From assembly GCF_024506395.1 (NCBI RefSeq), contig NZ_JANIBO010000001.1:248001-312000 (forward strand): 64,000 nt of DNA, given 5' to 3'. The position numbers and the translations under genes are program-made. The notes under the pieces are model-generated. The model did not search any database. It saw only the letters and a list, made by a program, of their open reading frames with translations, and was not told the DNA's origin. Shown here one piece after another: positions 4,185 to 21,996 of this stretch (positions are counted from its first letter, which is position 1; each line of letters opens with the position of its first letter). The DNA is from Cetobacterium sp. NK01 (GTDB lineage Bacteria; Fusobacteriota; Fusobacteriia; Fusobacteriales; Fusobacteriaceae).

Positions 4185-7100
4185 TTACATATCTTTTAAA
4201 ATCTCTAATAATATTGATTTCTTTTCTTCTTCTTTGACTGATAATCCCATTGCTTTTATAGTAGCTTCTAATTTTATCTTTAACATTTTTCCCATTTGAC
4301 TATGAGTTTCTACCAAAGGTATAATTAAACTTTCTCCATTTGATATAACTTCAATTACTTCACTTACATTTTCTCTTTCCAATTCTTTTGTAACTAAAAA
4401 CTTTTCTAATCTTTCTTTAAAGTCTTCTATATCATTTAAATTCGACCAATTCTCAAAACTAAAACCTTTGATTTTAGTTGTCAAATCTAATAAAAATATT
4501 TTATCATTTTTATAAATATATTTCTTTAACCAAGTTTTTATACCATTATCAAAAACTTTAGTTTGTTCTTGCCACTTTTCTAAAGCTTCTTTTAAATTTT
4601 GTCCTGTTTTTAAAATATTTAAAATTATTTCGTGAATCTGTAATTCAATTCTTATTTTTTCATCTTCTAAGTACTTCATATCCTCTGAAATAATTTTTAC
4701 AATTTCTTTTAAATCTTTAGTCTTTGCTCTTCTTGATAATTCTTCAAATAAAAATTCATATGCATTCTTATCTTGGAATAAAATATTAAATATCTTCGAT
4801 AAAACTTTACAGTTTTTTAATGATAAATTATTTAAAAATCTATTTAATGAATAAAAATATGTTTTAAATCCTTCTACAATTCCAATCTCTATCTCTGAAT
4901 TTTCAGAATAATAAACTCCTAGTAACTCTTTTAAATTTTCTAAATATTCCTCTTCAACAGCGGTCTTTTTAACATAACTTAAATAATAGTTTTCTGGATT
5001 TTTTTCTAACTTTTCAATTATATCATTACTTAATAATTGCTTTCTTTTAGTTGTTTTATCTACTATAGCTATACATTTTTTATTCTTTATTAATACAATA
5101 CCTAAAAATAAAGTAAAAATCCCAGCTCTTAATCCATAACCTTTTACTTTAGTTGTATAATCTTCATATAAGTTCCTTATAGAATAATTTTCTAACTTTA
5201 TTTTTTCTAAAATTTCTCTCTCTAAAATTTCCCATTTAGAATCTAGAATTATATCCCCTAAATTTAAAGAACATATTTTTTTCAAAACTGTTCTTGCTAC
5301 AGAGTTAATAGCTCCTGTATTTTTATAAAACTCTTTTGATTCTAAGTTTTTATCATTTTTTATTAACATCTCCAATAAAGTTAACCTTACTTTTTTCATA
5401 GGAGTACTTATTTTTTCTTTGTTCATTAATTCATAATTTATTTCAATATAATTCCTATACTTATCAATTAAATAATCATAGGTTACATTTAATATTTTTT
5501 TATCAACAAATATTTTATTTTCAGAAATAATTTCAATTTCCTTTATAGAAAAATATTCTTTTAACTCTAAATTTATAATTGAAATCAATTCATTTTTATA
5601 TAATAAATATTCCTCTTTAAGAGATAGATTTGTGGAGCATTTCTCATCTAGAACTAAACAATCTATTGCTTCTAATTCTTTTAACAAATAACCTATTTTA
5701 AGTTTTTTGTCATTTTTATTAACAACTAAAATAATATCTTTATTTTTTAAAATATTTTTAATAGAATCAAAATTGAATGCTTTAGTTATATTAGTCAAAT
5801 AAACTATAATCCCATCCGAATATTCTTTTATTTTATCTAAATAATCTACTTGAGTAACATCTAGATAAATCTGTTTAAAATATCTTGTTATATCTTTTTC
5901 ATAATTATATTTTACTGGATAATAGTAATCTAATTCTAAATATTTATTTAAAGATGTTGTATAACTTATAGAATGCAATTTATTTTGGATATATTCTTTA
6001 ATTTCATTTTCTATATTTATTTCAGCATCTTCAACTATCTTGTAATAATTCTTGTTTCTTTTATAAGAAATAATGTTTTTTTCTTGAAGACTTTTTAATA
6101 ATAAATCCATTTCATTTTCATTTAAATCAAGAGCTAATTTCAGTATCTCTTTGTTTGGTTGGATATCAGAGAATCTATTATAAATTTCTATAATTCCTAA
6201 AGTTTTTAGAAACCTCACTTCTTCAGTATCACTAATTAAATTTAAAGCTCTTTTTGTATTAAAAAAGCTTTTATATTCTGTAGTTTCATGATTCAGAAAC
6301 TTAAAATTTTCTTCAAAATAATCATAAATTTTATCTAATCCTATTAAAAATCTATCTTCTAATATACTTTCTAAGCCTTTTTCATCATTCGAACTTAAAA
6401 AAGCAAACATTGTTCTTTCATTTTGAGCAACTTTTTGTGATAATTCTGGTAATATATATGCTGATAAATAATTTAAAGGATAAAATTCATCTATAGTTTT
6501 ATCTATATCTTGAAATATGAATTTACTTTCTGATAAATTAGTCTTATATTTATCAAATTTTTCTTTGTTTAATTCTCGATATTCTTTAAATTTATCATTT
6601 TTATATATAACTTGAGATAAAATACTTAAAGATGTCACTTTATCATAAAATAAATGCTCTTTTTTAAATCTTCCAGATACTTTTTCCCATTCGTATATAT
6701 TATCTTGTTTATTTAATTTATTTGTATATTGAAATATATCTTTGTGAGTTATTAAAAACATAATAGAGTTATTGTCACTGTTACAGTATTCTGCCATATC
6801 TTGAATCTCTTTAACATCAACTTTATTTATATTAGTTTCTAAATATCTTCCAAACTCATCAAATACATACACTACTCCTAAATAGTTTGTTTTTTCTAAC
6901 ACTTCTTTTTCAAAATTTTGAATTAATTTAACTATATCAAAACTAGATTCATAATTGATAAACTCTTCTCCATAAAAAATCTCTTTGTATACTTCTTTAA
7001 AGAGTTCTATATAGAATGGTTTATTTTTTTCTAATTGATTTTTAAACTCTTCTAAACCTATATTTTTTTCTGATAAAATTTGTGAAAGTTTCTCTATTAT

Positions 7101-7583
7101 ATTAGGATATTCTTTATCCCAATCTTGTATTTTTTTTAGAATTATTTCGCTTTCTAAATTTAAACTTATATCTAATTTTTCTTTTTTTATAGAATCAAGA
7201 ATTCCATGTAAAATTGCCTTTTCATAACTTTTAAATCTATCTCTTGCAAAAACTACTAAATATTTTTTATCTTTTAGTTTTTCATATGTTTTCTTTAATT
7301 GAAACCGTTTTTCGGCTCTATTTAAAAAAACATCAATTTCTCCTTGATTTTCAACTGATAATAAATTTAATAAAACTGACATGAAAAATGATTTTCCACT
7401 TCCATATGCTCCAGATAAAATATATGACCCATTTTTTTTCCCTAATATAGATTCACTTATTTTAGCTAACAGTTTTATATTTTTTTCAGTAGGTATATAT
7501 GCATTTATTTTTTCATTTTTTTTGTAATCATTTTCAATATTTACTGAAAACCCAACTTTTGTTATCTGTATTCCTTTGTTCAT
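4185..7583 (-). CDS. sspC: SspC-like P-loop ATPase of the phosphorothioation system
   Basis: A 1132-residue cytoplasmic ATPase. Walker A is GAYGSGKS at residues 58-65 and Walker B is FDEFGRYLE at 241-249, followed by a sensor-like stretch (SIMFLITHKD). The remainder is long and helical with no domain I can name. Size, motifs and position directly after a DUF4007 gene and a PAPS-reductase-like gene fit SspC, the ATPase of the SspABCD DNA-backbone sulfur modification system. The BREX ATPase BrxC/PglY also has such a P-loop, but the neighbours argue against BREX. Its ATG overlaps the sspB stop as ATGA, implying translational coupling. It is the last gene of the operon. Confidence 0.8.
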   Translation of the reverse strand: MNKGIQITKVGFSVNIENDYKKNEKINAYIPTEKNIKLLAKISESILGKKNGSYILSGAYGSGKSFFMSVLLNLLSVENQGEIDVFLNRAEKRFQLKKTYEKLKDKKYLVVFARDRFKSYEKAILHGILDSIKKEKLDISLNLESEIILKKIQDWDKEYPNIIEKLSQILSEKNIGLEEFKNQLEKNKPFYIELFKEVYKEIFYGEEFINYESSFDIVKLIQNFEKEVLEKTNYLGVVYVFDEFGRYLETNINKVDVKEIQDMAEYCNSDNNSIMFLITHKDIFQYTNKLNKQDNIYEWEKVSGRFKKEHLFYDKVTSLSILSQVIYKNDKFKEYRELNKEKFDKYKTNLSESKFIFQDIDKTIDEFYPLNYLSAYILPELSQKVAQNERTMFAFLSSNDEKGLESILEDRFLIGLDKIYDYFEENFKFLNHETTEYKSFFNTKRALNLISDTEEVRFLKTLGIIEIYNRFSDIQPNKEILKLALDLNENEMDLLLKSLQEKNIISYKRNKNYYKIVEDAEINIENEIKEYIQNKLHSISYTTSLNKYLELDYYYPVKYNYEKDITRYFKQIYLDVTQVDYLDKIKEYSDGIIVYLTNITKAFNFDSIKNILKNKDIILVVNKNDKKLKIGYLLKELEAIDCLVLDEKCSTNLSLKEEYLLYKNELISIINLELKEYFSIKEIEIISENKIFVDKKILNVTYDYLIDKYRNYIEINYELMNKEKISTPMKKVRLTLLEMLIKNDKNLESKEFYKNTGAINSVARTVLKKICSLNLGDIILDSKWEILEREILEKIKLENYSIRNLYEDYTTKVKGYGLRAGIFTLFLGIVLIKNKKCIAIVDKTTKRKQLLSNDIIEKLEKNPENYYLSYVKKTAVEEEYLENLKELLGVYYSENSEIEIGIVEGFKTYFYSLNRFLNNLSLKNCKVLSKIFNILFQDKNAYEFLFEELSRRAKTKDLKEIVKIISEDMKYLEDEKIRIELQIHEIILNILKTGQNLKEALEKWQEQTKVFDNGIKTWLKKYIYKNDKIFLLDLTTKIKGFSFENWSNLNDIEDFKERLEKFLVTKELERENVSEVIEVISNGESLIIPLVETHSQMGKMLKIKLEATIKAMGLSVKEEEKKSILLEILKDM

Positions 7584-8470
7584 TGAAGTAGCTCACTTTC
7601 TAAAATTTTTTTAATTATATCTTTTTCTAAGTATTTTTTTATATCAAGAGTTATATTTTGCAGTCCTGCTGCTCTATCTACATGAATTTCATCTTGTAGT
7701 TCTAACTCTTGAACTATTTTTTCAAAATCTAGATAGCTAATTCTTATAATTTTATTTACATAATCATATGCATCTATTACTGAAAGTTGATTTATTAAAC
7801 CTTGATTTTTGATTTTTTTAAAAAGTAAGTAATAAATTAAATAATCAGAGATACTTTCTCTATTTACATTTATAAACTTATAAACTCCACCAGCTTGTTT
7901 TAAATAATTTAGCTTTACAAAAGGGGAAACCATATTTTCTTCAGGATTATTTAAAGTTTTCTCATCTTTTAAATAAGTTTTAATAAAAACATTTATTGTA
8001 TCTTCTAAAGTTTTTTTAGAATATTTTATTCTATTTTCAATACAAAAAAGCTCTGCTTTTTTTTCCAAACTTTCTTTTGAAAAACTATTATTTTCTTGAT
8101 TTTTAAAAACCAAATCCCATATTAATACTTTTTCATTTTTTTTAGTTAAAATATTAGAATGTAACAACCATAAACTATTTAAGTTCTCTAAATATGGATC
8201 TAATTGGAATATAATCTTTGAGTTTTCACTTAATTCTAAATCATCTCCATTTTTTTCTATAATTCCTAAAATATCTATCCAATATTTTATTGATTCAACC
8301 ATTTTGCTTCCGACACCTAAAGTATCTATTGCTACTGATAAATTATTTTTTGAAAAAAATGACTTATCTATTTTTTTATTTATATCTTTTTCATAAACCT
8401 TATAAAATAATTTATTTATCCAATTTTCTCTTATATAAAAAGAACTATGACCACTTATTATAACTTTCAT
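7580..8470 (-). CDS. sspB: SspB-like DUF4007 protein (phosphorothioation nickase)
   Basis: A 296-residue protein opening with the DUF4007 hallmark GHSSFYIRENW and then SVAIDTLGVGSKMVESIKYW, corresponding to the family pattern of a G-H-E/S-x-F start and an LGVGxxMV helix. DUF4007 proteins sit beside PAPS-reductase-like genes in single-strand phosphorothioation loci, where SspB is reported to nick DNA so that sulfur can be inserted. I start at ATG 8470, two bases after the sspD stop, because GAGGT lies 6 nt before it and the family homology begins there; an earlier in-frame start at 8512 lies inside sspD. It is coupled to sspC by a 4-bp overlap. Confidence 0.85.
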   Translation of the reverse strand: MKVIISGHSSFYIRENWINKLFYKVYEKDINKKIDKSFFSKNNLSVAIDTLGVGSKMVESIKYWIDILGIIEKNGDDLELSENSKIIFQLDPYLENLNSLWLLHSNILTKKNEKVLIWDLVFKNQENNSFSKESLEKKAELFCIENRIKYSKKTLEDTINVFIKTYLKDEKTLNNPEENMVSPFVKLNYLKQAGGVYKFINVNRESISDYLIYYLLFKKIKNQGLINQLSVIDAYDYVNKIIRISYLDFEKIVQELELQDEIHVDRAAGLQNITLDIKKYLEKDIIKKILESELLQ

Positions 8471-8472
8471 TT

Positions 8473-10110
8473 TTACCTCTTTTTTATCTTTAATGCTGAC
8501 GCAATTAAACAACCTGAATCAAATTTATCTATACATTTTAAACAATTCACACATTTCTTATCATCAATTATATATTTTCCATTACTTACATAAATAGCTC
8601 CTGTTGGACAAGCAGAATTACATCCCTGACAATATAAACAACTATTAAATTTATTAAATTGTTTTTGAATTTTATTAAATATGTATTTATCCTTACTTTT
8701 CATTATAGTTACTTTAACTTCATTATCATCATCTTTATACATCACTTTAAATAATGGATTATTTTTTCTATCTAAAATAATAAGCTCAGACATTCTATTT
8801 TTCCCCATAATTTTTAAAGTTCCAAATGGTTTAAAAAGTTGTACAAAATCTTCATTAACTGATTTGTTAAGAATAAATGTTTTTGAATTTTTTTCATTTA
8901 CACATTCTTTAGATTCAACTAATATATCTGTACTTTTTTCTAATCCCTCTCCACCTTGTCTAGCTTTCCATTTTCCATCTTTTACATAATCTTCATAATC
9001 GATTTTCCCTATTTTTTTAGAAAAATCAACTAAAAATCTATACCATTTATCATACTCTTCCGAATTATAAATTGATGATAATAACTCTGACCAAGTTCCA
9101 TTATTTGGACAAACCCAACAACCTACTCTTGCAAATCCTTGTCTATAAGAATCATTAAAATCTAAATTTTCAGATAATATATATAACCAAACATCTAAAT
9201 CAGTCCAATCAATAATTGGAGATGCTACTATCTGTTTTAGAATTTTTGGACTTTGGGATACTTTTTTGTATTTTGATCTTGAGGCTGACTCCCCTCTTCT
9301 TAATCCTAAAAACGTTAATATATTTTCATCAAAATTTGCCAATGTTGTTCCCATAGGTCCTGTTTTAAAAATTGAGCAGCACCATGTTTTTACTCTACTT
9401 GGCGGGCCAATTTCTTCACACATTTCAAAAAAATTATTTTCCTCATTTCTCTCTTCAAAAAAAGGTGTAAAAGGATTATCTTCTTGAAATCTTTTTACAT
9501 ATTCATATGATTTAGGTAATTCTAAAGTTGTATCTCCAAATATATGTAAAATACTTGGATTATTTAATGCTAACCTAACTAAATGTGAAACTACTGTTGA
9601 ATCTTTTCCTCCAGAAAAAGAAACTAAAGTTATTCTATCTTTATATTTTTCAAAAGTTTCAACTATAAAAGGTATTGCCCCAATAAATTGCCCCTCATTG
9701 TCTTTTGCTTCACTTTTTACAAGATAATTAAATCTATTTTTATTAGCTATTATAAAAGCTTCAAATATTTCTTTTTCTTTTTTTATATGTTCTTCAGTTA
9801 TTGAAAATGATAAAATATTTTTTCTAACATTCTCTAACTCATCTTGTTTCATACTCTTGAATTTAGATGTCGGGACTACATCAATCATTTTCCCATCTAC
9901 AATATATCTATTTTGTTTTGTTGCCCATACTGATTTTCCTAAAAAATTATTATCTAATTTTTGTGAAAATAAATTTATTAAAAGCCATTTTTCTTGTAAA
10001 AATACTGGCCTTAAATCCTTTGCTACTTCTAAGAAATCATTATTTTCTTCTAATATTAAAGGAATATTTTTTTCAAAGTCCCAATACATTTTTAAATCTT
10101 CATTTTTCAT
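8473..10110 (-). CDS. sspD: SspD/DndC-like sulfurtransferase with ferredoxin tail
   Basis: 545 residues. An adenine-nucleotide alpha-hydrolase / PAPS-reductase-like domain carries the PP-loop SGGKDST at residues 166-172, and a downstream WCCSIFKTGP and LGLRRGESASR typical of DndC-type enzymes. A C-terminal ferredoxin module has two clusters: CLYCQGCNSACPTGA and CVNCLKC with a later Cys. In phosphorothioation systems this protein activates the DNA backbone phosphate with ATP and receives sulfur from the cysteine desulfurase. The ferredoxin fusion suggests electron supply within the same chain. The start has AGAGGAA upstream. It sits between the DUF262 gene and sspB in one operon. Confidence 0.88.
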   Translation of the reverse strand: MKNEDLKMYWDFEKNIPLILEENNDFLEVAKDLRPVFLQEKWLLINLFSQKLDNNFLGKSVWATKQNRYIVDGKMIDVVPTSKFKSMKQDELENVRKNILSFSITEEHIKKEKEIFEAFIIANKNRFNYLVKSEAKDNEGQFIGAIPFIVETFEKYKDRITLVSFSGGKDSTVVSHLVRLALNNPSILHIFGDTTLELPKSYEYVKRFQEDNPFTPFFEERNEENNFFEMCEEIGPPSRVKTWCCSIFKTGPMGTTLANFDENILTFLGLRRGESASRSKYKKVSQSPKILKQIVASPIIDWTDLDVWLYILSENLDFNDSYRQGFARVGCWVCPNNGTWSELLSSIYNSEEYDKWYRFLVDFSKKIGKIDYEDYVKDGKWKARQGGEGLEKSTDILVESKECVNEKNSKTFILNKSVNEDFVQLFKPFGTLKIMGKNRMSELIILDRKNNPLFKVMYKDDDNEVKVTIMKSKDKYIFNKIQKQFNKFNSCLYCQGCNSACPTGAIYVSNGKYIIDDKKCVNCLKCIDKFDSGCLIASALKIKKR

Positions 10111-10126
10111 ATTATTTCCTCTATTT

Positions 10127-12265
10127 CTATCTATCGCTTAATTGATGAAGTTCTCTTAATAAAGTATCTTTTATAGTGTTGTACCTTTCTTCTAAAACTC
10201 TTCTATAATATTCATCCAAATTCTCATTACACTTTTGATTTAAATTTCTATTTATCATTTGTCCTATTCTAGACATATCTTGAACATCACTCATATATTT
10301 ATCAAACCCCATATCTCTTATTTTTCTATTAGCTTCTTTACTTATTAAAGTTCTATTTAATATACTATTTAATATATGTGTTTTATCATTTCTTATTTTA
10401 GAACTTAATTCTCCATATTTAGTTCCTGTTCCTAAAGGAATTAAATGATGATCTTCTAATTCTTTTGAACTTTCAGTTATTTCAAATGTTTTTAATTTTT
10501 CTGAATGGTTTCCAGGCAATAAATCATAAGGCTCTAGACTTAATATATAACCTAATAGATTTCTACTAACAGGACTCGGAGTTTTTGAATCGTTTAATAA
10601 AGTTTCTAAATCAGAATAACTTTCTACATTTAAAACCTTATCTATATTATCTTCTATTAATTCTTTTACTTTTAGATCATCTAATTTATTTAAGTTTATC
10701 CATTTATGAAGAGTTTTTAAATCTTCTACAGATCTTATATTTTGTCTTTCCCTAAATCTTCCTATAAATATCGATGTCCAATACCAATATTCAATCTTAT
10801 CCCAAACTCTTTTATCTTTCCAATTATCATCATCAGATAAAATATATGCAATCGGTAATAACATTAGTTCAAATGATATGTTTCCTAATTTTATAACCCC
10901 TAGTCTATAGTTGGCAAATGCTAACGCTCTTAATAAAGATTTGATTGTCTTAGGGGTCAAACTATTAATCTGGTCCGTTGTCATTTCAAACATTTTATCT
11001 CTTTTTATATGATCTAACTTTAAGTTTAATGGATCTTCTACATGAGAAAAAATTGACATTAAGTTTAAATATTGATTTTTAAATCTTTTATTTAGTTCAT
11101 CCTGACCTTCTATTACTCCAATATTTAATCCATTCCAAATAGTGTTTTCTTGAGGTAAAATATTCTTAGGAATATTAATTCCTTCTTCTACAAGTTTTTT
11201 TATTCTTTGAGTTAAAGATTCTAATTTTGAATCCTTAGCAGCTTTCGCTACAATCAAATCATAATTATCTAATGGTGTCCCACCTTTATTAATTGTTTCA
11301 AAAATTGCTATTCCTCTACTGATCTCATTTTTTTCTATCTCAATTACTGAAATCTCCTGCTCTATCAATTTATCTAGAAAATTAGTAATTTTTGTTTTCC
11401 ACTCAGCTGCCAAGGCTGATTTTAGATTACTTTTCCTCTCATCAAATTCATCTAAAACCTCTTCGTCGTTCAATTCTGGATCGATATCCTTAAAATAATA
11501 TTTTATTTGCTTTATTTTTTCTTCTTCTTCATATTCATCAATTTCATCTACTATTTCATCAGCTCTTTTATTGGCTATTTTTTCTACAACTTTATTTTGT
11601 AAATTTTTCCCTTCATTTAGACCAAATAAAGGTATTAATTTTTCTTCACTACAAAGATTTGCAAACTCATTAACTTTAGCTGCTTCACTTACTTTTTGAA
11701 AACTATATTTTGGATGATACCATATAGTTTTAGTTGATATTTTATTTGTTGTTTTGTCATTTATTTTATAATCTTGTATAAAATCGATGATTTCACTCGG
11801 AGTATATTTCCTCAAATTTTCACAACTAAAATCTAAGTTTTCATATCCAAAAATATCTTGATTTTCAGAATCTCCACTCTGAACCTTTAAAAACCATCTA
11901 TTTCTTATTTTTCCATAAGTACTAGAATATTTCTTTTCCCACTCCCCTTTATTTTCTTCGTTAAATTTAAAAAGATCTGTAAATATGGCTTTTAAAGTCG
12001 ACATTCTTTGTTGTCCATCTAATAAATATAAACACTCATCTTTAGCCTCTTCTACTTCATCTGAATAACATAGTTTTCTATAATTAAAATCACTTGAAGT
12101 ACCTTTTAATAATAGAATACTACTTATTGGTAGTTCAACTAAAAATGTTGCAAGTAGTTCTTTTTGTTGTTTAGAATCCCATACAAATTCTCTTTGAAAA
12201 TTTGGAAGAATAAGCTTTTTTTCCTCTTCTTCTTGAAATATTTCCCTTAGTTTTTTTACTTTCAA
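10127..12265 (-). CDS. SspE-like DUF262/HNH restriction effector
   Basis: 712 residues. The N-terminal DUF262 (ParB/Srx-like) domain has PNFQREFVWD at 21-30 and DGQQR at 83-87, the signature for nucleotide binding. The middle is helical. Near residues 610-650 a DUF1524-like HNH nuclease carries LEDHHLIPLG and later Asn residues (ILNRTLIS). This is the architecture of SspE and of GmrSD-type enzymes. SspE is reported to sense phosphorothioate and nick invading DNA. The start is a TTG at 12265 with AGGGGGA upstream. Position among sspA/B/C/D homologues supports the SspE role, but I cannot tell SspE from another DUF262 enzyme by sequence alone. Confidence 0.8.
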   Translation of the reverse strand: MKVKKLREIFQEEEEKKLILPNFQREFVWDSKQQKELLATFLVELPISSILLLKGTSSDFNYRKLCYSDEVEEAKDECLYLLDGQQRMSTLKAIFTDLFKFNEENKGEWEKKYSSTYGKIRNRWFLKVQSGDSENQDIFGYENLDFSCENLRKYTPSEIIDFIQDYKINDKTTNKISTKTIWYHPKYSFQKVSEAAKVNEFANLCSEEKLIPLFGLNEGKNLQNKVVEKIANKRADEIVDEIDEYEEEEKIKQIKYYFKDIDPELNDEEVLDEFDERKSNLKSALAAEWKTKITNFLDKLIEQEISVIEIEKNEISRGIAIFETINKGGTPLDNYDLIVAKAAKDSKLESLTQRIKKLVEEGINIPKNILPQENTIWNGLNIGVIEGQDELNKRFKNQYLNLMSIFSHVEDPLNLKLDHIKRDKMFEMTTDQINSLTPKTIKSLLRALAFANYRLGVIKLGNISFELMLLPIAYILSDDDNWKDKRVWDKIEYWYWTSIFIGRFRERQNIRSVEDLKTLHKWINLNKLDDLKVKELIEDNIDKVLNVESYSDLETLLNDSKTPSPVSRNLLGYILSLEPYDLLPGNHSEKLKTFEITESSKELEDHHLIPLGTGTKYGELSSKIRNDKTHILNSILNRTLISKEANRKIRDMGFDKYMSDVQDMSRIGQMINRNLNQKCNENLDEYYRRVLEERYNTIKDTLLRELHQLSDR

Positions 12266-12282
12266 TTACTTATCCCCCTAAA

Positions 12283-12813
12283 TTATACGATTATTTTCAT
12301 GACCTCGTTTATTTCTCTCTCTTCTCTTTCCTCATCAAACATATTCTCTAAAAAATTTTCTGGACTTTCTAAAAAATCCTCAAAGTTTCTTATATATCCT
12401 TCTCCATCTTTTGTTAATATCTCTTTTAACTTTTCTATTCCTAAACTGGCACAATTATTAAATATATCTACTATTCTTTTATTGTCTAATATATCTTCAA
12501 TACTATTATTTAAAGATAATGCTACTGAATATATTAAATGGTAATATTCACTAAAATCAACTGGTGATAAAGGTCTAAATTCTTTTTTTACTAAACTATG
12601 TTTTTCAATTTTTAGAGGTTGATTTGAATATAAATTAAATCCTATTAATGCTGCTAACACATATATATCTTTTTTTGTATCAAAGAAACCATCTCCTCTT
12701 TGATTTAATAACTCATTATATATATTATCAAATTCCTTTTCGTAACCAAATCCATTTAGTTCATTACTCACTTCTCTTCTTTTTCTTATCTCTTCTTGAA
12801 ATAGTTCATTCAT
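12283..12813 (-). CDS. Phosphorothioation-associated protein (dnd_assoc_4-like)
   Basis: 176 residues, soluble, helical and acidic at the C-terminus. The stretch FFDTKKDIYVLAALIGFNLY followed by an SLALSLNN-like helix and an IFNNCASLGIEKLKEIL segment resembles the family named DNA phosphorothioation-associated protein 4, which is found beside DndD-like ATPases. It has no catalytic motif. One base separates it from the ATPase gene upstream, so the two are very likely co-translated and may form a complex. It may be one component of an SspFGH-like module. Family assignment is from memory of the pattern and should be checked by profile search. Confidence 0.62.
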   Translation of the reverse strand: MNELFQEEIRKRREVSNELNGFGYEKEFDNIYNELLNQRGDGFFDTKKDIYVLAALIGFNLYSNQPLKIEKHSLVKKEFRPLSPVDFSEYYHLIYSVALSLNNSIEDILDNKRIVDIFNNCASLGIEKLKEILTKDGEGYIRNFEDFLESPENFLENMFDEEREEREINEVMKIIV

Positions 12814-12814
12814 A

Positions 12815-14860
12815 TTAAATCTCCTCTTTTATTCTTGTAACATCATATCTTTTGTCTATTCCTGTTCTTCTTTCATTTTCTAATGTATATATCTTCCCTA
12901 TTTTATCTTTAACAACATTTTCTATTGTAGAATTCCATTGTCCTGATGAAACCATTACAATGACCTGCTCCGATAAAATTGGTAACATTTTAGTAAAGTC
13001 CAATCTATAGTCATTATCTAAATCACCATATGGAGCATCTAACACTAAAGGGTATATTCCACCATCACAATCTAACTCAGACTTATTTTTTTCTTTATTT
13101 AATTCCTTTGCGTAATAAACTAATCCTCCAATAAAGCTTAAAGCTTTATTTTTTGCTTCTCCCTTTGACGTTCCAGCTTCTTTCCCATCTGTATCAAAAA
13201 CTTTGAATTCAAAATTTTCTGTCAATTCAACACTATATCTCTTTTTATTTATTCGAGAATAAACCTCTTCTATTTTATGCTTTAATCCTTCTCTTCCTTG
13301 AGCTTCTTTATATTTTTTCAAAGTTTCAAGATTTAACATTATTTTTTCTGCAAAATCTCTTTTTATTCTTGCTCTTTTATTTTTTGTATCTCTTTTCTCA
13401 GCCTCTACTTTTTCAATTCTAACTGAAGTTAATTCTTTTTCAATTCTTTCTATCTCTAATTCTAAAGCTCCTATTTTTTTATGAAGATTATTTTTTATCT
13501 CATCCTTATTCGTAATTGTTGTTTTTATATTTTGCAACTCAACTTGAAGATCATAATTAGATTCTTTTAATAAAACATCTAACTCATCTTCAATACTATC
13601 TATTTTATTTTGAATCTTATTATTTTCTAATTTTATCGAATTTATAATTTCTAGAAAATTCTTTTGTTCTCTATTTTTTAACATAAAATATACTTCACTT
13701 ACTTTTTCTCTATTCTCTTTTGTTGCAGCATTTTCTAATTTTGCTACTATTTTAGCATAGTTATCCGTATGACTAGCTAATGATGCTCCGCATATACACT
13801 CTTTTAGATTTAGTAATTCTTCTAAAAATTCTTTCTCATATCTTGACGGTATTTCTCCTTTCTCTTTTTTTCTTTCAATTACTCTAAAACCATTTTTTAA
13901 TATTTGAGATGAAATAATCTCAACACCTTTTAATGATAAAAATTGTTCATATCTCTTTTGAATTAGCTCTTTCGAATTTTCTTGTTGTTTTTTATCAGCT
14001 TGTAAAAACTCAACTCTTTTTTTATTTTTTTCATCTTCCTGACTTATCATCATGAGCTCATTTACTTTATTATTTAACTCTTCTTTTTCTATATCTATAA
14101 CTTCAATTTCTTTTATTATTTCTGCTTTTGTATCTAATTTACTTTTATATTCATTCTCTATTGCGCTAACTTTTTTTTCTAAATCCACAATATTTTTATT
14201 AGAACTATTGCTTTCAGAATATTCTTTCTCTAGCTCTTTGTAAACTTTTGATGTATCTAAAACAGCATTTTCTAAACTTTTTATTCCTAATACTCTGTTT
14301 ATAGATTCTTCGATTGCTTCTATACTTTCTTTTTTTGCTTTCTTTTGATTCTCTTTTTCTGGAGCTATTTTTTCTAATCTTTCTCCATCAACAAAAAAAT
14401 TAATTTCTTTCGGTAATAAACGATTTATTATCTCCTGACAATGTATAGCTGAATTCTCACTTGTTATTTTCCCATCTCTAGATTCTATATCCAATCTTAC
14501 ACCTTTAAATATATCGTTCTCAAAACTTATTTCTCTTGTTATTTTGTATTCTTGCTCTATACTATTTTCTGACACTTTTCCAACTATATTTAAAATTACT
14601 TTAGCTGACACTTTATTTTTATTTTCATCTAAATATTTTTTATTTACAAAACTACTCGCTCCAAATTTTTTAGGATCTGCTGATGTTAAATCTAAATTCC
14701 CTCCATATAATCCCCATTTAATAGCTTCTAAAAGAGTTGTTTTTCCAGAACCATTCTCAGCTTTTAAAAGCGTTATATTTTTTTCTCCACTACAAAACTC
14801 TAATTTTACTTTTCCATAATATGGTCTAAAATTTTCTAAGATTATACTTTTAAATATCAT
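12815..14860 (-). CDS. DndD-like SMC/Rad50-type ATPase
   Basis: About 681 residues. The N-terminal ABC-type head has Walker A AENGSGKTT near residue 34-42 and FFVDGERLEKIAP, the pattern seen in DndD. Two long coiled-coil arms flank a central CICG, which may be a reduced zinc hook. The C-terminal head carries GGLVYYAKEL and the Walker B region LVLDAPYGDLD. Such ATPases act on DNA in phosphorothioation modification or restriction. Because SspC is also present, this one more likely belongs to a second, restriction-type module. I chose ATG 14860, which overlaps the upstream stop as TAATG; a GTG at 14872 is the alternative. Confidence 0.85.
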   Translation of the reverse strand: MIFKSIILENFRPYYGKVKLEFCSGEKNITLLKAENGSGKTTLLEAIKWGLYGGNLDLTSADPKKFGASSFVNKKYLDENKNKVSAKVILNIVGKVSENSIEQEYKITREISFENDIFKGVRLDIESRDGKITSENSAIHCQEIINRLLPKEINFFVDGERLEKIAPEKENQKKAKKESIEAIEESINRVLGIKSLENAVLDTSKVYKELEKEYSESNSSNKNIVDLEKKVSAIENEYKSKLDTKAEIIKEIEVIDIEKEELNNKVNELMMISQEDEKNKKRVEFLQADKKQQENSKELIQKRYEQFLSLKGVEIISSQILKNGFRVIERKKEKGEIPSRYEKEFLEELLNLKECICGASLASHTDNYAKIVAKLENAATKENREKVSEVYFMLKNREQKNFLEIINSIKLENNKIQNKIDSIEDELDVLLKESNYDLQVELQNIKTTITNKDEIKNNLHKKIGALELEIERIEKELTSVRIEKVEAEKRDTKNKRARIKRDFAEKIMLNLETLKKYKEAQGREGLKHKIEEVYSRINKKRYSVELTENFEFKVFDTDGKEAGTSKGEAKNKALSFIGGLVYYAKELNKEKNKSELDCDGGIYPLVLDAPYGDLDNDYRLDFTKMLPILSEQVIVMVSSGQWNSTIENVVKDKIGKIYTLENERRTGIDKRYDVTRIKEEI

Positions 14861-15042
14861 TAGTCGCTCCACTCCATTGAATATTGTCCGATTATCTCTT
14901 TAATTTCTTTTACTGTCACAGCACTTTCTTTTTTAATTAATCTATCTGGATTATTCTCTAATTTGATTATTGCAATTATTGTATTTTGCTCATTTTTACT
15001 TAAGCTTGCAAAGAATTCTTGTCCTTTTGATTTTGCACTCAT
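14860..15042 (-). CDS. Tiny DNA-modification-associated protein
   Basis: 60 residues, helical, charged, no Cys pair or membrane segment. It lies between the PLD-helicase and the DndD-like ATPase, 12 bp after the former and overlapping the latter by one base (TAATG). Small proteins of this size are regularly found next to DndD-like ATPases in DNA-modification loci, and this gene's reading frame and tight spacing argue that it is real. It may be an adaptor for the ATPase. A GAGGA ribosome-binding site is visible upstream. No catalytic function can be proposed. Confidence 0.7.
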   Translation of the reverse strand: MSAKSKGQEFFASLSKNEQNTIIAIIKLENNPDRLIKKESAVTVKEIKEIIGQYSMEWSD

Positions 15043-15054
15043 TCTATCCTCTCC

Positions 15055-17148
15055 TCATATTCCATAAAACTCTTTTATTTTTTTTAATTCATTTTCATTT
15101 CTATTTTTATTTAAAGCTAACGAATTATATTCTTGAAGTCTTTTTAATTCACCTTCGACTAATTTTTTTTCATAGTTAAAATTAGAGTCCTGTATAGGTT
15201 CATAATTTTCATAGCTTCTAGGAACTATTAAAAAATCATGTATTTCTGCTATATCTTTACCACTGGCTTTTCTTAATATTCTTCCTCTTCTTTGAACATA
15301 TTCTCTATAATTCCCTGTACTTCCCAAAATATAAGCTCTTTCTATTGACGGAATATTTATTCCCTCATCTAAACATTTTATAGCTACAACTGCATTTATA
15401 TCTTTTTTAACAAATTTTCCAATTACCTCTTCTCTCTCCTCTTTAGATTCCTGAGATGTAAATTTCATAAGTTTAAAATTTAATTTTTTCGATATGATAT
15501 CCATTGTTTTATCTATAAACTTTTGTTCGGTATCCTCATACTCACTTTTACTTTTTCCAGCTCCAACATATATAAGATTATTAAAACTATCTTCATCAAT
15601 AATTTCTAACAATTTATCTATTTTATTGCTCGTTAAATTTAATAATCTAGCTCTTTTAAATAAAAGCATCTCTAAAGGAGTTGACTCTTTTTTCTTATCC
15701 TTTATATTTGAAGATTTAGAAAAACTCATTGAAGATATTTTTTTACTCAGCTCTATATATTCTCTCTCTTCATCCTCTGTTAAAGTTACAAAATAAGGAT
15801 AATATTTGTAATTTGTTAAAAATTCACCTTTTATAGCATCTTCTAAAGAAAATTGAAAAACAACATTTCCTAAATATTTTTCTATAATTTCATTTCCTTT
15901 TTGATCTCCTTGTCTATCTGGTGTAGCTGATAATCCAAGCCTCAGAGATATTTTTTTTAATTCTTCTTTTTCTAAAAACTCTTCAAAACTAGAACTTCCA
16001 ATATTATGACATTCATCTACTACGATCATAATCTCCTTTTTGATTCTTCTTACTGCTCTCAAAAAAGAGATATTTTGTAATGTCTTATTTGTCACAACTG
16101 CAACTACAACATCTTCTTGATTTTCATTTAGTAAAAATAGTTTTCTATTTATTTCATCTTTCCAATTTTTATTTTCTGAATTACAAATTATAGATTTTAT
16201 TCCAAATTCTTTAATTTCCTCTGACCACTGTCTTACTAAATATGTTTGAGGACAAACTACTATAAAAAACATTCTTTTTTCTTTAGATATTTCTGTCATT
16301 ATATTCAAAGCTGTTAATGTTTTTCCACTTCCAGTCGCCATTTCTAATATTCCTTTAAAATTATTATTTTTCCAATTTTTAAAAGCTTCACTTTGATACT
16401 CTCTAACTATTAACCACTCTGGTTTAGATAAACCTTTTAATAAGTTTTTTTTATATTTTTTATTTAAAATTACTTTTATTTCTTCATCTGTTGGAGCTTT
16501 TGAAATTATATTTTTTTTGATTGCTTCGCTTAAATCAATTACTTCGATTTTATTTGTTTCATTAGCCCAAAGTTTTTCAAAATCCTTCTCTTTATTTTCT
16601 ACTCTTTCCAAATCTTTTTTTCCATCTAACGATGAATAAACATCTATCGATTCAAAATTTCTACTCATTCCTCCAATAGTTTCATTAACTGATCCTGAAA
16701 AAGCTATCTTATTATTTTTTATATCTCTAAATATCCCAAACTTCTCATGATAAATTCCAAAATGATTTTTTTGATAAGCTATCTTTAATTGAAGTATATT
16801 TTTACTAAGTAACCAAGAAAATATCTTTGTAATATCTTCTTCTTTTCCAGAATAAAATTTTTCCAATTCTTTTTCTATTTTCAAATTAATTACTTCTATA
16901 TCATCTAATTTTTTTATAGTTTCCAAATCTTTTTCAGATAATTTAGGAGACGTTACAACTCTCATTAAACCATTATTTTTTATAAGATTTTCTACTCCTT
17001 CTAACAATAAGCATAAACTATCACTTGTAAAATATCCTACAGCTCTATCATAAGAAATTGAATTTTTTAAACATTTTTCAAAAAAATCACAATAAATATC
17101 ATCATTATCACTTCTATACGATGTTTTTAAATCTAATATTTCAAACAT
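15055..17148 (-). CDS. PLD-domain superfamily 2 helicase
   Basis: 697 residues with two parts. The N-terminal phospholipase-D-like fold (about 20-190) has HEKFGIF at 134-140 and SGSVNET at 151-157, an HKD-like half-site that could cleave phosphodiesters. The helicase core follows: Walker A ATGSGKT at 271-277, VVDECHN (DEAD/DEAH box), LSATPDR, and a C-terminal motif VI QRRGRILRKAS. This is the DEAD/DEAH-box nuclease-helicase type found in phosphorothioation restriction loci. It would unwind or translocate on unmodified DNA. It is separated by 21 bp from the coiled-coil gene and 12 bp from the small gene. Confidence 0.85.
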   Translation of the reverse strand: MFEILDLKTSYRSDNDDIYCDFFEKCLKNSISYDRAVGYFTSDSLCLLLEGVENLIKNNGLMRVVTSPKLSEKDLETIKKLDDIEVINLKIEKELEKFYSGKEEDITKIFSWLLSKNILQLKIAYQKNHFGIYHEKFGIFRDIKNNKIAFSGSVNETIGGMSRNFESIDVYSSLDGKKDLERVENKEKDFEKLWANETNKIEVIDLSEAIKKNIISKAPTDEEIKVILNKKYKKNLLKGLSKPEWLIVREYQSEAFKNWKNNNFKGILEMATGSGKTLTALNIMTEISKEKRMFFIVVCPQTYLVRQWSEEIKEFGIKSIICNSENKNWKDEINRKLFLLNENQEDVVVAVVTNKTLQNISFLRAVRRIKKEIMIVVDECHNIGSSSFEEFLEKEELKKISLRLGLSATPDRQGDQKGNEIIEKYLGNVVFQFSLEDAIKGEFLTNYKYYPYFVTLTEDEEREYIELSKKISSMSFSKSSNIKDKKKESTPLEMLLFKRARLLNLTSNKIDKLLEIIDEDSFNNLIYVGAGKSKSEYEDTEQKFIDKTMDIISKKLNFKLMKFTSQESKEEREEVIGKFVKKDINAVVAIKCLDEGINIPSIERAYILGSTGNYREYVQRRGRILRKASGKDIAEIHDFLIVPRSYENYEPIQDSNFNYEKKLVEGELKRLQEYNSLALNKNRNENELKKIKEFYGI

Positions 17149-17169
17149 TTCTATTTTTCCCTTTCTTTA

Positions 17170-20004
17170 TTAGAATAATATATCTGCAATAGTTTTATCT
17201 AATTCTACTTTTAAATCGCTATCTTGTACTTCTTTATCTTCAATAACTTTTAAATTTTTAATCTTTAAATTATTCTTACTCTCATGTATCTTTTTTATTA
17301 AAGGATATAATTCTGAATAATTATTTTTTATAATTTGATATTGACTTTTATTTACTTCTAAATTATTTTCAATATATTTTCCTAAAGTAAATATCTTTTT
17401 TCTTAACCATTCACTTATATTTCCATCTTTCTTAGACAAATCATAAAGCTCATACCAATCATTTGCACTATAATTTTCTAAATCATTAAATGTTATTTCC
17501 TCTTCTAATAAATTTACTTCTAGTGGAATTTCATTAATTTTTTTATTTAAGGAGTTATCTACTTTTTGAACCTTATCTTTATACATATCCTCTATAAGTT
17601 TTTCATAAAATAATTCTATTTTTTCCAAACTCATATCTGTTAATGGTAACTTTAATTTTAATCTTGTCATTATATTTGAAAAATCTCTTTCTTGAGATGG
17701 TTTTAAGATTTTTCTTTTTTTACCCTCTATATAAATTTCTTTAAAATCAGATTCTGTGAAATTTCTTAATAATGGAATTAAATCATTTTTATTTTCTAAA
17801 AATTTTTCATAATCACTCCATTTACCAACTAATCTAAGCTCCTTTTTATTTTCTTGTATTTCATTTTCTTTTAAATCTATTTTAATTTCTTCTAATACAT
17901 CTTCTTTTTCTTTTATTACTTCTTTTTGTTCAACTTTATTAAATAGAGTTTTATGGTATCCTTCCATAAATTTTATGTATAATTCATTTATTTTATCAGT
18001 ATTTAATTTTGATAATGGAGTTCCCCATTTTAACCAAGTTATTACAGTTAAAATTTGTCTCTCATCAAATGTATTAAAAATATTTTTTTCTTTCCCTAAA
18101 GAAACAATTTTTCTAAAATCATTTTCTGAAAAAGTAGATAAATATTCACTTAACCTATCTTTATTTTTTAAATACTCATTGTAATCTGTACAACTCCATG
18201 TACTAGACCTTTCAATTGAATCTACCATTACTTTTTCTTTCTCTAAATTACTTTTACCTTCTTGCATCTTTAATAACTCTTTTGACACTCTTGCTTTTTC
18301 TATTTTTTCTTCAGTTATTTTTTTCTCTAAATTTTCTATCTTTATTTTTAACTCTTGGCATTTTAACCCTAACATCTCTTTTTTTAACAGCTCTTTTTCT
18401 AATTCCTTCTTCTCTTCACACAACGAAACTATCTCTTTTGATAGTTTTTCTTTTTCTTCTTTTTCCACTTCATTAACTTTTTTTAATTCTTTTAATTCTT
18501 TTTCTAAAACATTTTTTTCTTCTCCTACTTTTAACACTTCTTCTGATAATTTTTTCTTTTCTACTTTATCTTTAGTTGATTTTTCCGTTAAATCTTCTAA
18601 TGTTAATTTAAGTTCTTGGTATCTTAACTCTAACGTTGCTTTTTTTAACAGCTCTTTTTCTAATTCTTTCTTCTCTTCACACAACGAAACTATCTCTTTT
18701 GATAGTTTTTCTTTTTCTTCTTTTTCCACTTCATTAACTTTTTTTAATTCTTTTAACTCTTTTTCTAAAACATTTTTTTCTTCTCCTACTTTTAACACTT
18801 CTTCTGATAATTTTTTCTTTTCTACTTTATCTTTAGTTGATTTTTCCGTTAAATCTTCTAATGTTAATTTAAGTTCTTGGTATCTTAACTCTAACGTTGC
18901 TTTTTTTAACAGCTCTTTTTCTAATTCTTTCTTCTCTTCACACAACGAAACTATCTCTTTTGATAGTTTTTCTTTTTCTTTTTTTTCCACTTCATTAACT
19001 TTTTTTAATTCTTTTAACTCTTTTTCTAAAACATTTTTTTCTTCTCCTACTTTTAACACTTCTTCTGATAATTTTTTCTTTTCTACTTTATCTTTAGTTG
19101 ATTTTTCCGTTAAATCTTCTAATGTTAATTTAAGTTCTTGGTATCTTAACTCTAACGTTGCTTTTTTTAACAACTCTTTTTCTAATTCTTTCTTCTCTTC
19201 ACACAACGAAACTATCTCTTTTGATAGTTTTTCTTTTTCTTCTTTTTCCACTTCATTAACTTTTTTTAATTCTTTTAACTCTTTTTCTAAAACATTTTTT
19301 TCTTCTCCTACTTTTAACACTTCTTCTAATAATTTTTTCTTTTCTACTTTATCTTTAGTTGATTTTTCCGTTAAATCTTCTAATGTTAATTTAAGTTCTT
19401 GGTATCTTAACTCTAACGTTGCTTTTTTTAACAGCTCTTTTTCTAATTCTTTCTTCTCTTCACACAACGAAACTATCTCTTTTGATAGTTTTTCTTTTTC
19501 TTCTTTTTCCACTTCATTAACTTTTTTTAATTCTTTTAACTCTTTTTCTAAAACATTTTTTTCTTCTCCTACTTTTAACACTTCTTCTGATAATTTTTTC
19601 TTTTCTACTTTATCTTTAGTTGATTTTTCCGTTAAATCTTCTAATGTTAATTTAAGTTCTTGGCATCTTAAATCTAACGTTGCTTTTTTTAATAGCTCTT
19701 TTTCTAATTCTTTCTTCTCTTCACATAATAATTTTTTTTCATTTTCTAATTCTCTTTGGATAATTTTAATTTTTATTAATTCATCTTTTTGATTCTCATT
19801 TTCAATTTTCAAATTTTTCATATCTTTATCTTTCATTTGAATTTTTTCTTTTAAACTTTCAAAATTCTTTAACTCTTCTTGTAAAATCTCATTATTTTTT
19901 AATATACGAGCAAGTTCATTTTTTAAAAAATTACATTTTTCTATTGATTCATCTAAATCTTCTTCCAACTTTTTATCTCGAAACAACTCTTTCAATATTT
20001 TCAT
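17170..20004 (-). CDS. Repeat-amplified coiled-coil protein with three C-terminal modules
   Basis: 944 residues, very rich in Lys/Glu, with no signal peptide. Residues ~1-95 are irregular coiled coil. Then come five 87-residue repeats, nearly identical (each holding LCEEKKELEKELLKK and LTLEDLTEKS), and a sixth degenerate unit. After a break (SSTWSCTDYNEYL) there are three related ~80-residue helical modules: one from WSCTDYNEYLKNK, one from KWSDYEKFLENK, and a more distant one from ENYSANDWYELYD. The first two share an NDF/SDF, ER-I and LS/DM layout. I know no such protein in Dnd or Ssp systems. It lies 8 bp after sspA and 21 bp before the helicase, so it is clearly operonic. A scaffold, filament or phage-sensing role is possible but speculative. 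Confidence 0.85.
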   Translation of the reverse strand: MKILKELFRDKKLEEDLDESIEKCNFLKNELARILKNNEILQEELKNFESLKEKIQMKDKDMKNLKIENENQKDELIKIKIIQRELENEKKLLCEEKKELEKELLKKATLDLRCQELKLTLEDLTEKSTKDKVEKKKLSEEVLKVGEEKNVLEKELKELKKVNEVEKEEKEKLSKEIVSLCEEKKELEKELLKKATLELRYQELKLTLEDLTEKSTKDKVEKKKLLEEVLKVGEEKNVLEKELKELKKVNEVEKEEKEKLSKEIVSLCEEKKELEKELLKKATLELRYQELKLTLEDLTEKSTKDKVEKKKLSEEVLKVGEEKNVLEKELKELKKVNEVEKKEKEKLSKEIVSLCEEKKELEKELLKKATLELRYQELKLTLEDLTEKSTKDKVEKKKLSEEVLKVGEEKNVLEKELKELKKVNEVEKEEKEKLSKEIVSLCEEKKELEKELLKKATLELRYQELKLTLEDLTEKSTKDKVEKKKLSEEVLKVGEEKNVLEKELKELKKVNEVEKEEKEKLSKEIVSLCEEKKELEKELLKKEMLGLKCQELKIKIENLEKKITEEKIEKARVSKELLKMQEGKSNLEKEKVMVDSIERSSTWSCTDYNEYLKNKDRLSEYLSTFSENDFRKIVSLGKEKNIFNTFDERQILTVITWLKWGTPLSKLNTDKINELYIKFMEGYHKTLFNKVEQKEVIKEKEDVLEEIKIDLKENEIQENKKELRLVGKWSDYEKFLENKNDLIPLLRNFTESDFKEIYIEGKKRKILKPSQERDFSNIMTRLKLKLPLTDMSLEKIELFYEKLIEDMYKDKVQKVDNSLNKKINEIPLEVNLLEEEITFNDLENYSANDWYELYDLSKKDGNISEWLRKKIFTLGKYIENNLEVNKSQYQIIKNNYSELYPLIKKIHESKNNLKIKNLKVIEDKEVQDSDLKVELDKTIADILF
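18419..19723. repeat. Five 261-bp tandem repeats within the coiled-coil gene
   Basis: The marker CACAACGAAAC recurs at 18419, 18680, 18941, 19202 and 19463, exactly 261 bp apart, and is replaced by a diverged form at 19722. Units differ by only a few bases (for example one EE to KE change and one S to L change). 261 is a multiple of 3, so changes in copy number keep the frame. Confidence 0.95.
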
Positions 20005-20012
20005 AGCCTCTC

Positions 20013-21149
20013 CTAAAATATACTTTCTAAAACCTCTGTTAGTTTGTATAAATCCTCTTCATCATTAAAATATCCAACTGATAATCTTAAAGTTCCGTTT
20101 TTATCGGTCTCCATATGTTTATGGGCTAAAGGAGCACAGTGAAGACCTCTTCTCGTTATTATTCCCCCATCATTAAAAATATTTTCTAATTCTTGTGGGG
20201 TATAATCATTAGCTTCTATTGAGATAACTCCAACATTATTTTCTCTATCTGATAAAATTTTCAAATCATATGAATATTCTTCTAAAAGATCATATAAATC
20301 TCTTATGTTTTTCTGCTTTTTATTTTTTATATTTTCTATCCCAATTTTCAAAAGTTCATCAGTTGATATCTTAAGACCAATTATCCCTAATATATTTGGA
20401 CTTCCCGCTTCAAATCTCTCTGGAAGCTCCTCTGGCATGTCTTCATCTTCAGAATTAATTCCTGTACCACCATATAATAGTGGTTTTAGATGAACATTTT
20501 TATTATAGATATATCCTCCTATTCCTGACGGCCCATATAAATTTTTGTGTCCTGCAAAAACTATAAAATCTGAAGAAATAGAGATTTCTGAAAAATCTAA
20601 AACTCCTCCAGTTTGCGTTGCATCTAAAATTGTTATAGCATCATATTTTTTTCCCTCTTCAAATATATCTTTTACTGGTAAAATATTTCCAAAAACATTT
20701 GATGCATGATTACATATTATTAAATCTGGTTTTTTTGACATAAATTGAAGTTTCATATTTTCAAAATCTAAATCAAATCTATGAAATTTTAAAACTTTTA
20801 TATCTATATTTTTCTCTTTTATAACTCTTTTTAAAACTCTATAGACTGAATTGTGTTCAAAAGGTGATATGTAAACTGTTTTTATATTAGTATAATCTAA
20901 TCCCAATATAATTTCGTTTAATGAAAATGTAGCAGATGAATTTAGTATTACTTCATTTTTAGTCTTAAATATTGTTTTTATATTTTTTATCAAATTCTCT
21001 TTTATAGATTTTGCATCTTTACTTTTTTCTGAGTTATTTCGTGAAAAATTAACTCCATACTTTTCATAAATATTCATAGTATCCTCATAAAAATTTTTAA
21101 ATTTAGGATAAGATGTTGATGCATTGTCAAAATAAGTTATATTTTTCAT
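20013..21149 (-). CDS. sspA: Cysteine desulfurase of the phosphorothioation system
   Basis: 378-residue class-V aminotransferase fold. PLP ligands are visible: His149 (NHAS), Asp176 (DATQ) and Lys202 in the AGHKN loop. The nucleophilic Cys338 lies in RRGLHCAP, which carries sulfur as persulfide. SspA/DndA-type enzymes take sulfur from L-cysteine and pass it to the SspD/DndC partner. Close relatives act in Fe-S assembly (IscS, SufS), but here the gene opens a phosphorothioation operon and no Fe-S scaffold gene is adjacent. GGGAGA lies before the ATG. The leader contains a strong terminator-like hairpin. Confidence 0.85.
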   Translation of the reverse strand: MKNITYFDNASTSYPKFKNFYEDTMNIYEKYGVNFSRNNSEKSKDAKSIKENLIKNIKTIFKTKNEVILNSSATFSLNEIILGLDYTNIKTVYISPFEHNSVYRVLKRVIKEKNIDIKVLKFHRFDLDFENMKLQFMSKKPDLIICNHASNVFGNILPVKDIFEEGKKYDAITILDATQTGGVLDFSEISISSDFIVFAGHKNLYGPSGIGGYIYNKNVHLKPLLYGGTGINSEDEDMPEELPERFEAGSPNILGIIGLKISTDELLKIGIENIKNKKQKNIRDLYDLLEEYSYDLKILSDRENNVGVISIEANDYTPQELENIFNDGGIITRRGLHCAPLAHKHMETDKNGTLRLSVGYFNDEEDLYKLTEVLESIF

Positions 21150-21316: not shown

Positions 21317-21901
21317 TTATTTTTTTATTCTTTTTAAAATTCTATCTTTTAAATCAATATCTTTCTCTATCTTTTTATTAGTAAGTCTTTCTAAAGCAGA
21401 TAGATTTCCATAACGACAGATATCATTCATCTCGCTTTCTGTAAGAGTACTTGTTGTTTTTGACATCAACTCTTGAAAACGTCTTTTATTAGATATAAAT
21501 TCTTCTATGCAACTTTCCTCTTTCGTAGAGAACAGATTATAAAAATCACTTACATAATCTTTAGGAGCAACATATGGATTTTCATTTGGAATAAACATAA
21601 TTCTCATGTTAGATCCTCTAGTTACATGATGTAAAGTTTTATCTGGTGCTTCCCAAACTGCAAAAGCTTGTTTTTCAAAAAGAATATCTGACTCTAAAAT
21701 CGATACTCCATATACAATTTTTCCACCGTGTAAGTCTATATATTTTGCAACAGTTTCAAAAGAATCATTAATATTGTATTTTCTTATTTGAATATTATGA
21801 TCTAATTTACGAGTTAAAAAAACATAATTTTTAGAATGGATAAATTGTTCTAATTCATTGTAAATAACTTCTGGACAGTTTAATTTTGAGTGAGATTTCA
21901 T
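21317..21901 (-). CDS. Hypothetical protein with a YGV/WEAPD-type domain
   Basis: 194 residues from ATG 21901, chosen because GGAGG lies 7 nt upstream; the longer frame to 21922 lacks one. The section GKIVYGVSIL, AFAVWEAPD, HHVTRG and IMFIPNE resembles a module seen in SEC-C-containing and related uncharacterised proteins, where it reads roughly GWxIxEWP...HAVWxxPDG...DITP...FLPD. There is no signal peptide. The C-terminal helix is basic. It ends ~110 bp upstream of the sspA hairpin and is probably not part of the ssp operon. The function is unknown. Confidence 0.7.
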   Translation of the reverse strand: MKSHSKLNCPEVIYNELEQFIHSKNYVFLTRKLDHNIQIRKYNINDSFETVAKYIDLHGGKIVYGVSILESDILFEKQAFAVWEAPDKTLHHVTRGSNMRIMFIPNENPYVAPKDYVSDFYNLFSTKEESCIEEFISNKRRFQELMSKTTSTLTESEMNDICRYGNLSALERLTNKKIEKDIDLKDRILKRIKK

Positions 21902-21996
21902 TATTGCCTCCAAAAAAATCAAATATTTTTTGATTTTACTTATATTATACCCCGTATAAGAAACATTTACAACAAATGATTGAATTTAAAACTTTT

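Follow-up and report, generated by a model that had tools for sequence, protein, structure and literature searches.

The 944-residue protein encoded between sspA and the neighbouring helicase gene in the window, i.e. in the whole 64,000-nucleotide stretch of Cetobacterium DNA analysed here, is a member of a previously undescribed protein family. Judging from gene content, this protein, termed X, is an accessory tied to the restriction (DNA-attack) half of its operon, an anti-phage operon of phosphorothioate (sulfur on DNA) defence in some Cetobacterium gut bacteria, and related systems do without it. X is probably an accessory adaptor or a sensor and not a core part, and what is new is an accessory family in an already known kind of defence.

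Gene X in an Ssp-Pbe operon

The operon (4185-21149) comprises an SspABCD modification set, a complete PbeABCD restriction set and a GmrSD protein (Table 1). The helicase is PbeA, and downstream of X an HKD-SF2 helicase, a small protein, a CxC ABC ATPase and a DndE-like protein follow in this order, the DndE-like assignment of PbeD being a TIGR04062 match below cut-off. The gene order pbeA-pbeB-pbeC-pbeD is the same in the portions consulted of two descriptions of PbeABCD, or CxC ABC-ATPase, systems (PMC6459918, PMC10853773); there PbeABCD is combined with DndCDEA or with methylases, whereas the modification partner here is SspABCD. With the systems in which SspABCD is accompanied by SspE or SspFGH (PMC8092258; Xiong 2020 via PMC10853773, as far as the parts consulted go) the operon has sspA-D and an SspE-like DUF262 protein in common, and in both the restriction cassettes adjoin a shared modification set. 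The Ssp-Pbe hybrid is also found in Fusobacterium-like genomes (L089-L092) and may itself be under-described. A small ORF occupies the pbeB position in another Pbe locus, too; the pbeB ORF and the 261-bp repeat described below were both missing from the original prediction. Upstream of sspA lies a 201-aa ORF (21317-21922) with a weak DUF4420 match only, and a 201-aa ORF is found at the matching place in another Cetobacterium genome, G010 (L012:8324-8929).

Table 1. Features of gene X and of the surrounding operon (positions in the window).
Feature	Position	Strand	Basis
Gene X, 944 aa, coiled coil and three C-terminal helical modules	17170..20004	-	open frame, 8/21-bp gaps
N-terminal segment of X, MKILKELFRDKKLEE	19960..20004	-	alignment: identical in G003, similar in G005
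Tandem array in X, 261-bp period, ~5.5 copies, 97% identical (87-aa coiled-coil repeat)	18296..19725	-	TRF, copies compared
Helical module A1	17941..18201	-	alignment A9, AF2
Helical module A2, DFKEIYIEGKKR	17569..17826	-	AF2 pLDDT 93
Helical module B	17269..17502	-	also in G042 X-like protein; weakly at AIPR C terminus
Conserved C-terminal tail LDKTIADILF, candidate docking peptide	17173..17202	-	alignment
sspA, cysteine desulfurase	20013..21149	-	Pfam Aminotran_5 2e-59, PADLOC SspA 5e-23
pbeA, PLD/HKD nuclease-SF2 helicase	15055..17148	-	PADLOC PbeA 1e-225; Pfam PLDc_2, ResIII
pbeB, 60 aa, overlaps pbeC start	14860..15042	-	ORF, position; conserved in G003, G005, G010
pbeC, coiled-coil ABC ATPase, invariant CxC motif (CIC)	12815..14860	-	PADLOC PbeC 1118 bits, alignment
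pbeD, DNA phosphorothioation-associated protein 4 family	12283..12813	-	TIGR04062 E 4e-5, below curated cut-off
GmrSD_N (DUF262) protein, SspE-like in architecture	10127..12265	-	Pfam 2e-20
sspD / BrxP-like PAPS reductase, 4Fe-4S region	8473..10110	-	Pfam, PADLOC
sspB (DUF4007)	7580..8512	-	Pfam, PADLOC
sspC, ATPase	4185..7583	-	PADLOC SspC 1e-81

X is separated by 8 bp from sspA upstream (20005-20012) and by 21 bp from pbeA downstream (17149-17169), exactly as predicted; a ribosome-binding-like sequence, AGGAGAGG, immediately precedes its ATG, and orthologues occupy the equivalent position in G003 and G005, two further Cetobacterium genomes. Neither X nor its modules matched a family in Pfam, NCBIfam, PADLOC or PDB, and with BFVD included no counterpart in described systems was found, in agreement with what had been proposed from the letters alone; the consulted parts of the Pbe descriptions PMC6459918 and PMC10853773 likewise contain no X-like coiled-coil gene. 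Searches of plasmids, phages and viral contigs returned no match to X, and PbeA had no match in viral contigs.

Several known identities were considered and rejected. X is not an enlarged PbeB, the small disordered protein encoded between pbeA and pbeC in Pbe systems, as it has 944 residues and lies upstream of pbeA, and since the place of pbeB is taken by a 60-aa ORF of its own X is no substitute for PbeB. Neither X nor its C-terminal part matches an ATPase family in Pfam, PADLOC or NCBIfam, speaking against a coiled-coil ABC ATPase of the PbeC, DndD or SMC type. X does not belong with SspE, SspF, SspG or SspH, as it showed no family match to these and none to an ATPase or nuclease family, and the DUF262 protein is encoded by a separate gene. 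X does not match PF10592 either and is thus not an AIPR anti-phage protein, only module B being weakly similar. Finally, a housekeeping family was discarded, as X matched nothing in Pfam or NCBIfam and none of 98 Fusobacteriota genomes contained a convincing copy away from ssp/pbe loci; a housekeeping match of the modules and a lack of co-occurrence with ssp genes had been named as grounds for abandoning the prediction, and neither was observed. Provisionally, we define the family by a gene directly after sspA, an N-terminal coiled coil and module A and/or B, a combination present in the window, G003 and G005 and, through module B, in G042, a genome of another fusobacterial genus.

A repeat-expanded coiled coil followed by exchangeable modules

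The N-terminal ~600 residues of X form an E/K/L-rich, Pro/Gly-poor helical region in which several stretches show heptad-like periodicity. The hydrophobic periodicity near 3.5 is stronger than in shuffled sequences for residues 1-95 of X (P0001; 4/500 shuffles) and for residues 471-640 of the orthologue P0003 (0/500). The predicted long coiled coil is thus upheld by composition and by the periodicity of several stretches, but not by the 87-aa repeat alone, for which the periodicity is not significant against shuffles (101/500). The 261-bp array encoding this repeat makes up most of the coiled coil of X and is absent from the orthologues; its five compared copies differ at only 7 nucleotides, indicating a recent expansion. 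The array is a likely hotspot for variation of coiled-coil length, and as the length of X proteins ranges about two-fold, from 440 to 944 aa, the pure fixed-length spacer that had been considered is unlikely.

The three related C-terminal modules are real (residues ~602-688, 727-812 and 835-912). In the AF2 model of X each is a separate helical unit (pLDDT ~80) and the linkers fall below 50, and a single-module model derived from all seven module copies of three genomes has five helices (pLDDT 93.4, pTM 0.83). The modules are thus predicted to be compact helical bundles joined by flexible linkers. Modules 1 and 2 are clearly related (35% identity); the third is collinear with them and more distant (hhalign pairwise E 0.026, probability 2%). 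Module A2 is the best conserved part of X (52-60% identity to the orthologues), and the ADILF tail is invariant in three orthologues and in a remnant of X in G010. Structure searches of the modules against PDB and BFVD gave no useful match, the best PDB E value being 8.3 for the single-module model.

Module arrangements are shuffled among X proteins, i.e. A-A-B, B-A-B, A and, in G042, a DNA-binding winged helix (wHTH) followed by B. Module B is also similar to the C-terminal end of an AIPR protein from an Agrobacterium Mza-like operon. The C-terminal module of AIPR (MzaE-like) proteins, ~60 residues long, has the pattern W...W.R...F..G...KQ in common with module B. As X has no AIPR domain and the similarity is weak (E 0.01), this sequence-based link is weak but suggestive. 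Other weak matches of module B were dropped as chance, namely a glycosidase-like protein (G082), a protease-like protein (G062), unrelated ORFs (G057) and matches in G060, beside a recombinase-like ORF, and in G058, with a ferredoxin-like ORF. A widespread defence module was rejected as well, a profile that included AIPR rows yielding only chance-level extra matches over 389 genomes.

Distribution and divergence of X

Among 61 genomes of the family the C-terminal part of X is matched only in the window genome and in G003 and G005, where the order sspA-X-pbeA-pbeB-pbeC-pbeD-GmrSD-sspD is identical to that of the window. A PbeC of high similarity is encoded in one more genome, G010. Its pbeABCD frames are intact, and 231 bp lie between sspA and pbeA instead of X. 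These 231 bp align piecewise with the G003 X, matching its beginning, its interior and its end at 84-93% identity, and the first frame stops after three codons, i.e. the G010 copy is a pseudogene. The modification gene sspD is present in 5 of the 12 genomes of the genus. In one Cetobacterium genome, G009, the order is sspA-GmrSD-sspDBC with matching chromosomal neighbours, and both X and PbeABCD are lacking; X thus goes with an X-PbeABCD cassette and not with the modification genes. In five Fusobacterium-like genomes, which belong to the same family, sspC, sspA and pbeA follow one another (with sspB and sspD as far as the contigs extend), and none of the five has X between sspA and pbeA, which marks X as an accessory. 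The proposed search for the modules beside other phosphorothioation genes showed X to co-occur with ssp/pbe genes in other genomes, whereas the notion of a general component built into phosphorothioation does not hold in view of the G010 remnant, the Fusobacterium-like loci and G009.

Between the window and G003 the identity is 41% for X, 55% for PbeB, 69% for PbeC, 74% for PbeD, 85% for SspA, 94% for SspB, 95% for PbeA and GmrSD and 97% for SspD; by this measure X is the fastest-changing of the operon proteins compared. With dN/dS values between genomes of 0.27-0.62, a range also given for A2, versus 0.10-0.24 for PbeA and PbeC (dS being near saturation for some pairs), the X modules are under purifying selection, weaker than that on PbeA and PbeC. 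Within the cassette, PbeA is 95% identical between the window and G003, but PbeB, PbeC and PbeD only 55-74%, and PbeBCD of G003 and G010 are 92-95% identical; these mosaic identities (window, L006, L007, L012) suggest allele exchange within the operon.

In other fusobacterial genomes the slot between sspA and sspD carries different genes. G001 has an SspFGH-like set with a possible P-loop protein and an FtsK protein (L060:5475-18641, where the SspFGH-like cassette is followed by genes for 271 and 1403 aa), G033 a Sigma70_r4 protein alone, and G042 a distant X relative, X42 (L032:8693-9862), together with a 1070-aa Sigma70_r4 protein. Like X, X42 is encoded right after sspA and has a coiled-coil-like N-terminal region and module B (profile E 2.5e-7; pairwise E 3e-7 in a small set). 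It differs from X by an additional Rex-type winged helix (PF06971, 7.6e-9) and by a 50-residue C-terminal tail that recurs at 52% identity in its 1070-aa neighbour, as would be the case for a common docking element, and the G042 slot lacks PbeABCD. Large Sigma70_r4-HTH proteins of ~1000 aa recur beside Ssp genes in G042 and G033 and beside PbeA/PbeC in G039 (L032:5467-8679, L061:5948-8860 and L095:5985-9041); they are a possible further undescribed component, the G042 copy being weakly similar to MzaA.

Possible roles of X in Ssp-Pbe defence

Based on sequence and predicted structure we tentatively favour X as an accessory adaptor of PbeABCD, i.e. an elongated, probably dimeric coiled-coil rod bearing helical protein-binding modules and a conserved tail. 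X lies in a tight gene run with sspA and pbeABCD and in Cetobacterium comes and goes with the PbeABCD cassette, not with sspBCD. The coiled coil would form an extended homo-oligomer whose reach may vary, and modules A and B together with the ADILF tail may dock a phage factor or one or several proteins of the Pbe (or Ssp) set; the HKD helicase PbeA and the CxC ABC ATPase PbeC might thereby be gathered or triggered more efficiently. As X is absent from other Ssp-Pbe loci, the core reaction would run without it, and X may modulate its strength, target range or resistance to evasion. X would thus dock the restriction cassette or tune its triggering. This reading is based on the shared position of X in three Cetobacterium genomes and its decayed remnant in another, on the loci without X in G009, where PbeABCD is lacking too, and in Fusobacterium-like genomes, on the module-B relative after sspA in G042 and the tail that it shares with its neighbour, on compact modules on flexible linkers and on the dN/dS of the modules. 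Counting against it are the non-significant periodicity of the 87-aa repeat alone, the very short similarity between the tails of Cetobacterium X and X42, and the rapid divergence and domain shuffling, which fit a sensor equally well.

A sensor is indeed the strongest rival to the adaptor reading, and a possible, though rather unlikely, one: fast-changing modules would recognize a phage protein and release the activity of PbeABCD. The low identity of X relative to its operon neighbours, the shuffled modules, the recently expanded array and the resemblance of module B to an anti-phage AIPR protein all agree with this. Nevertheless, no similarity of X to phage proteins was seen, and the Ssp-Pbe loci kept without X in Fusobacterium-like genomes imply that X is not an obligatory trigger.

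A tether role, in which an N-terminal helix would hold the restriction machinery at the membrane or the nucleoid and the coiled coil would serve as a spacer, is improbable. The conserved N terminus MKILKELFRDKK may form a short amphipathic helix (moment 0.55-0.61, net charge +1 to +3) and X42 has its DNA-binding winged helix, but the hydrophobic moment ranks no higher than among the top 2-9% of sequence windows of these amphipathic proteins, X42 lacks an amphipathic N terminus, and X varies in length. Quite improbable, too, is a negative regulator or immunity factor restraining PbeABCD: rapid evolution and operon position would suit it, and PbeB-like small proteins have been proposed for this role (PMC10853773, in the part consulted), but PbeB is encoded separately here, and the intact pbeABCD frames of G010 show that this genome survives the loss of X. 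A passenger gene of another function or decaying, low-constraint filler, as the absent or decayed copies might suggest, is very improbable given purifying selection in the modules, the conserved tail, the relative at the corresponding position in a different genus and convincing matches only beside ssp/pbe genes among the 98 Fusobacteriota genomes.

Going beyond the adaptor reading, we speculate, as an unlikely extension, that X founds a modular coiled-coil sensor/adaptor family that plugs different restriction cassettes into the Ssp module, i.e. PbeABCD in Cetobacterium and the Sigma70_r4-HTH protein in G042, and whose fast-swapping C-terminal modules would set the triggering phages. The comparison identifies the gap between sspA and sspD as a place where, in a single phylum, alternative restriction cassettes are exchanged. 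How Pbe systems are triggered is disputed: in the parts of the sources consulted, one study observed no cleavage of viral DNA with PbeABCD (PMC6459918), whereas it has been argued elsewhere that cleavage must occur in Pbe restriction (PMC10853773). X, being dispensable, fast-evolving and encoded in only a subset of Ssp-Pbe operons, offers a handle on triggering and specificity.
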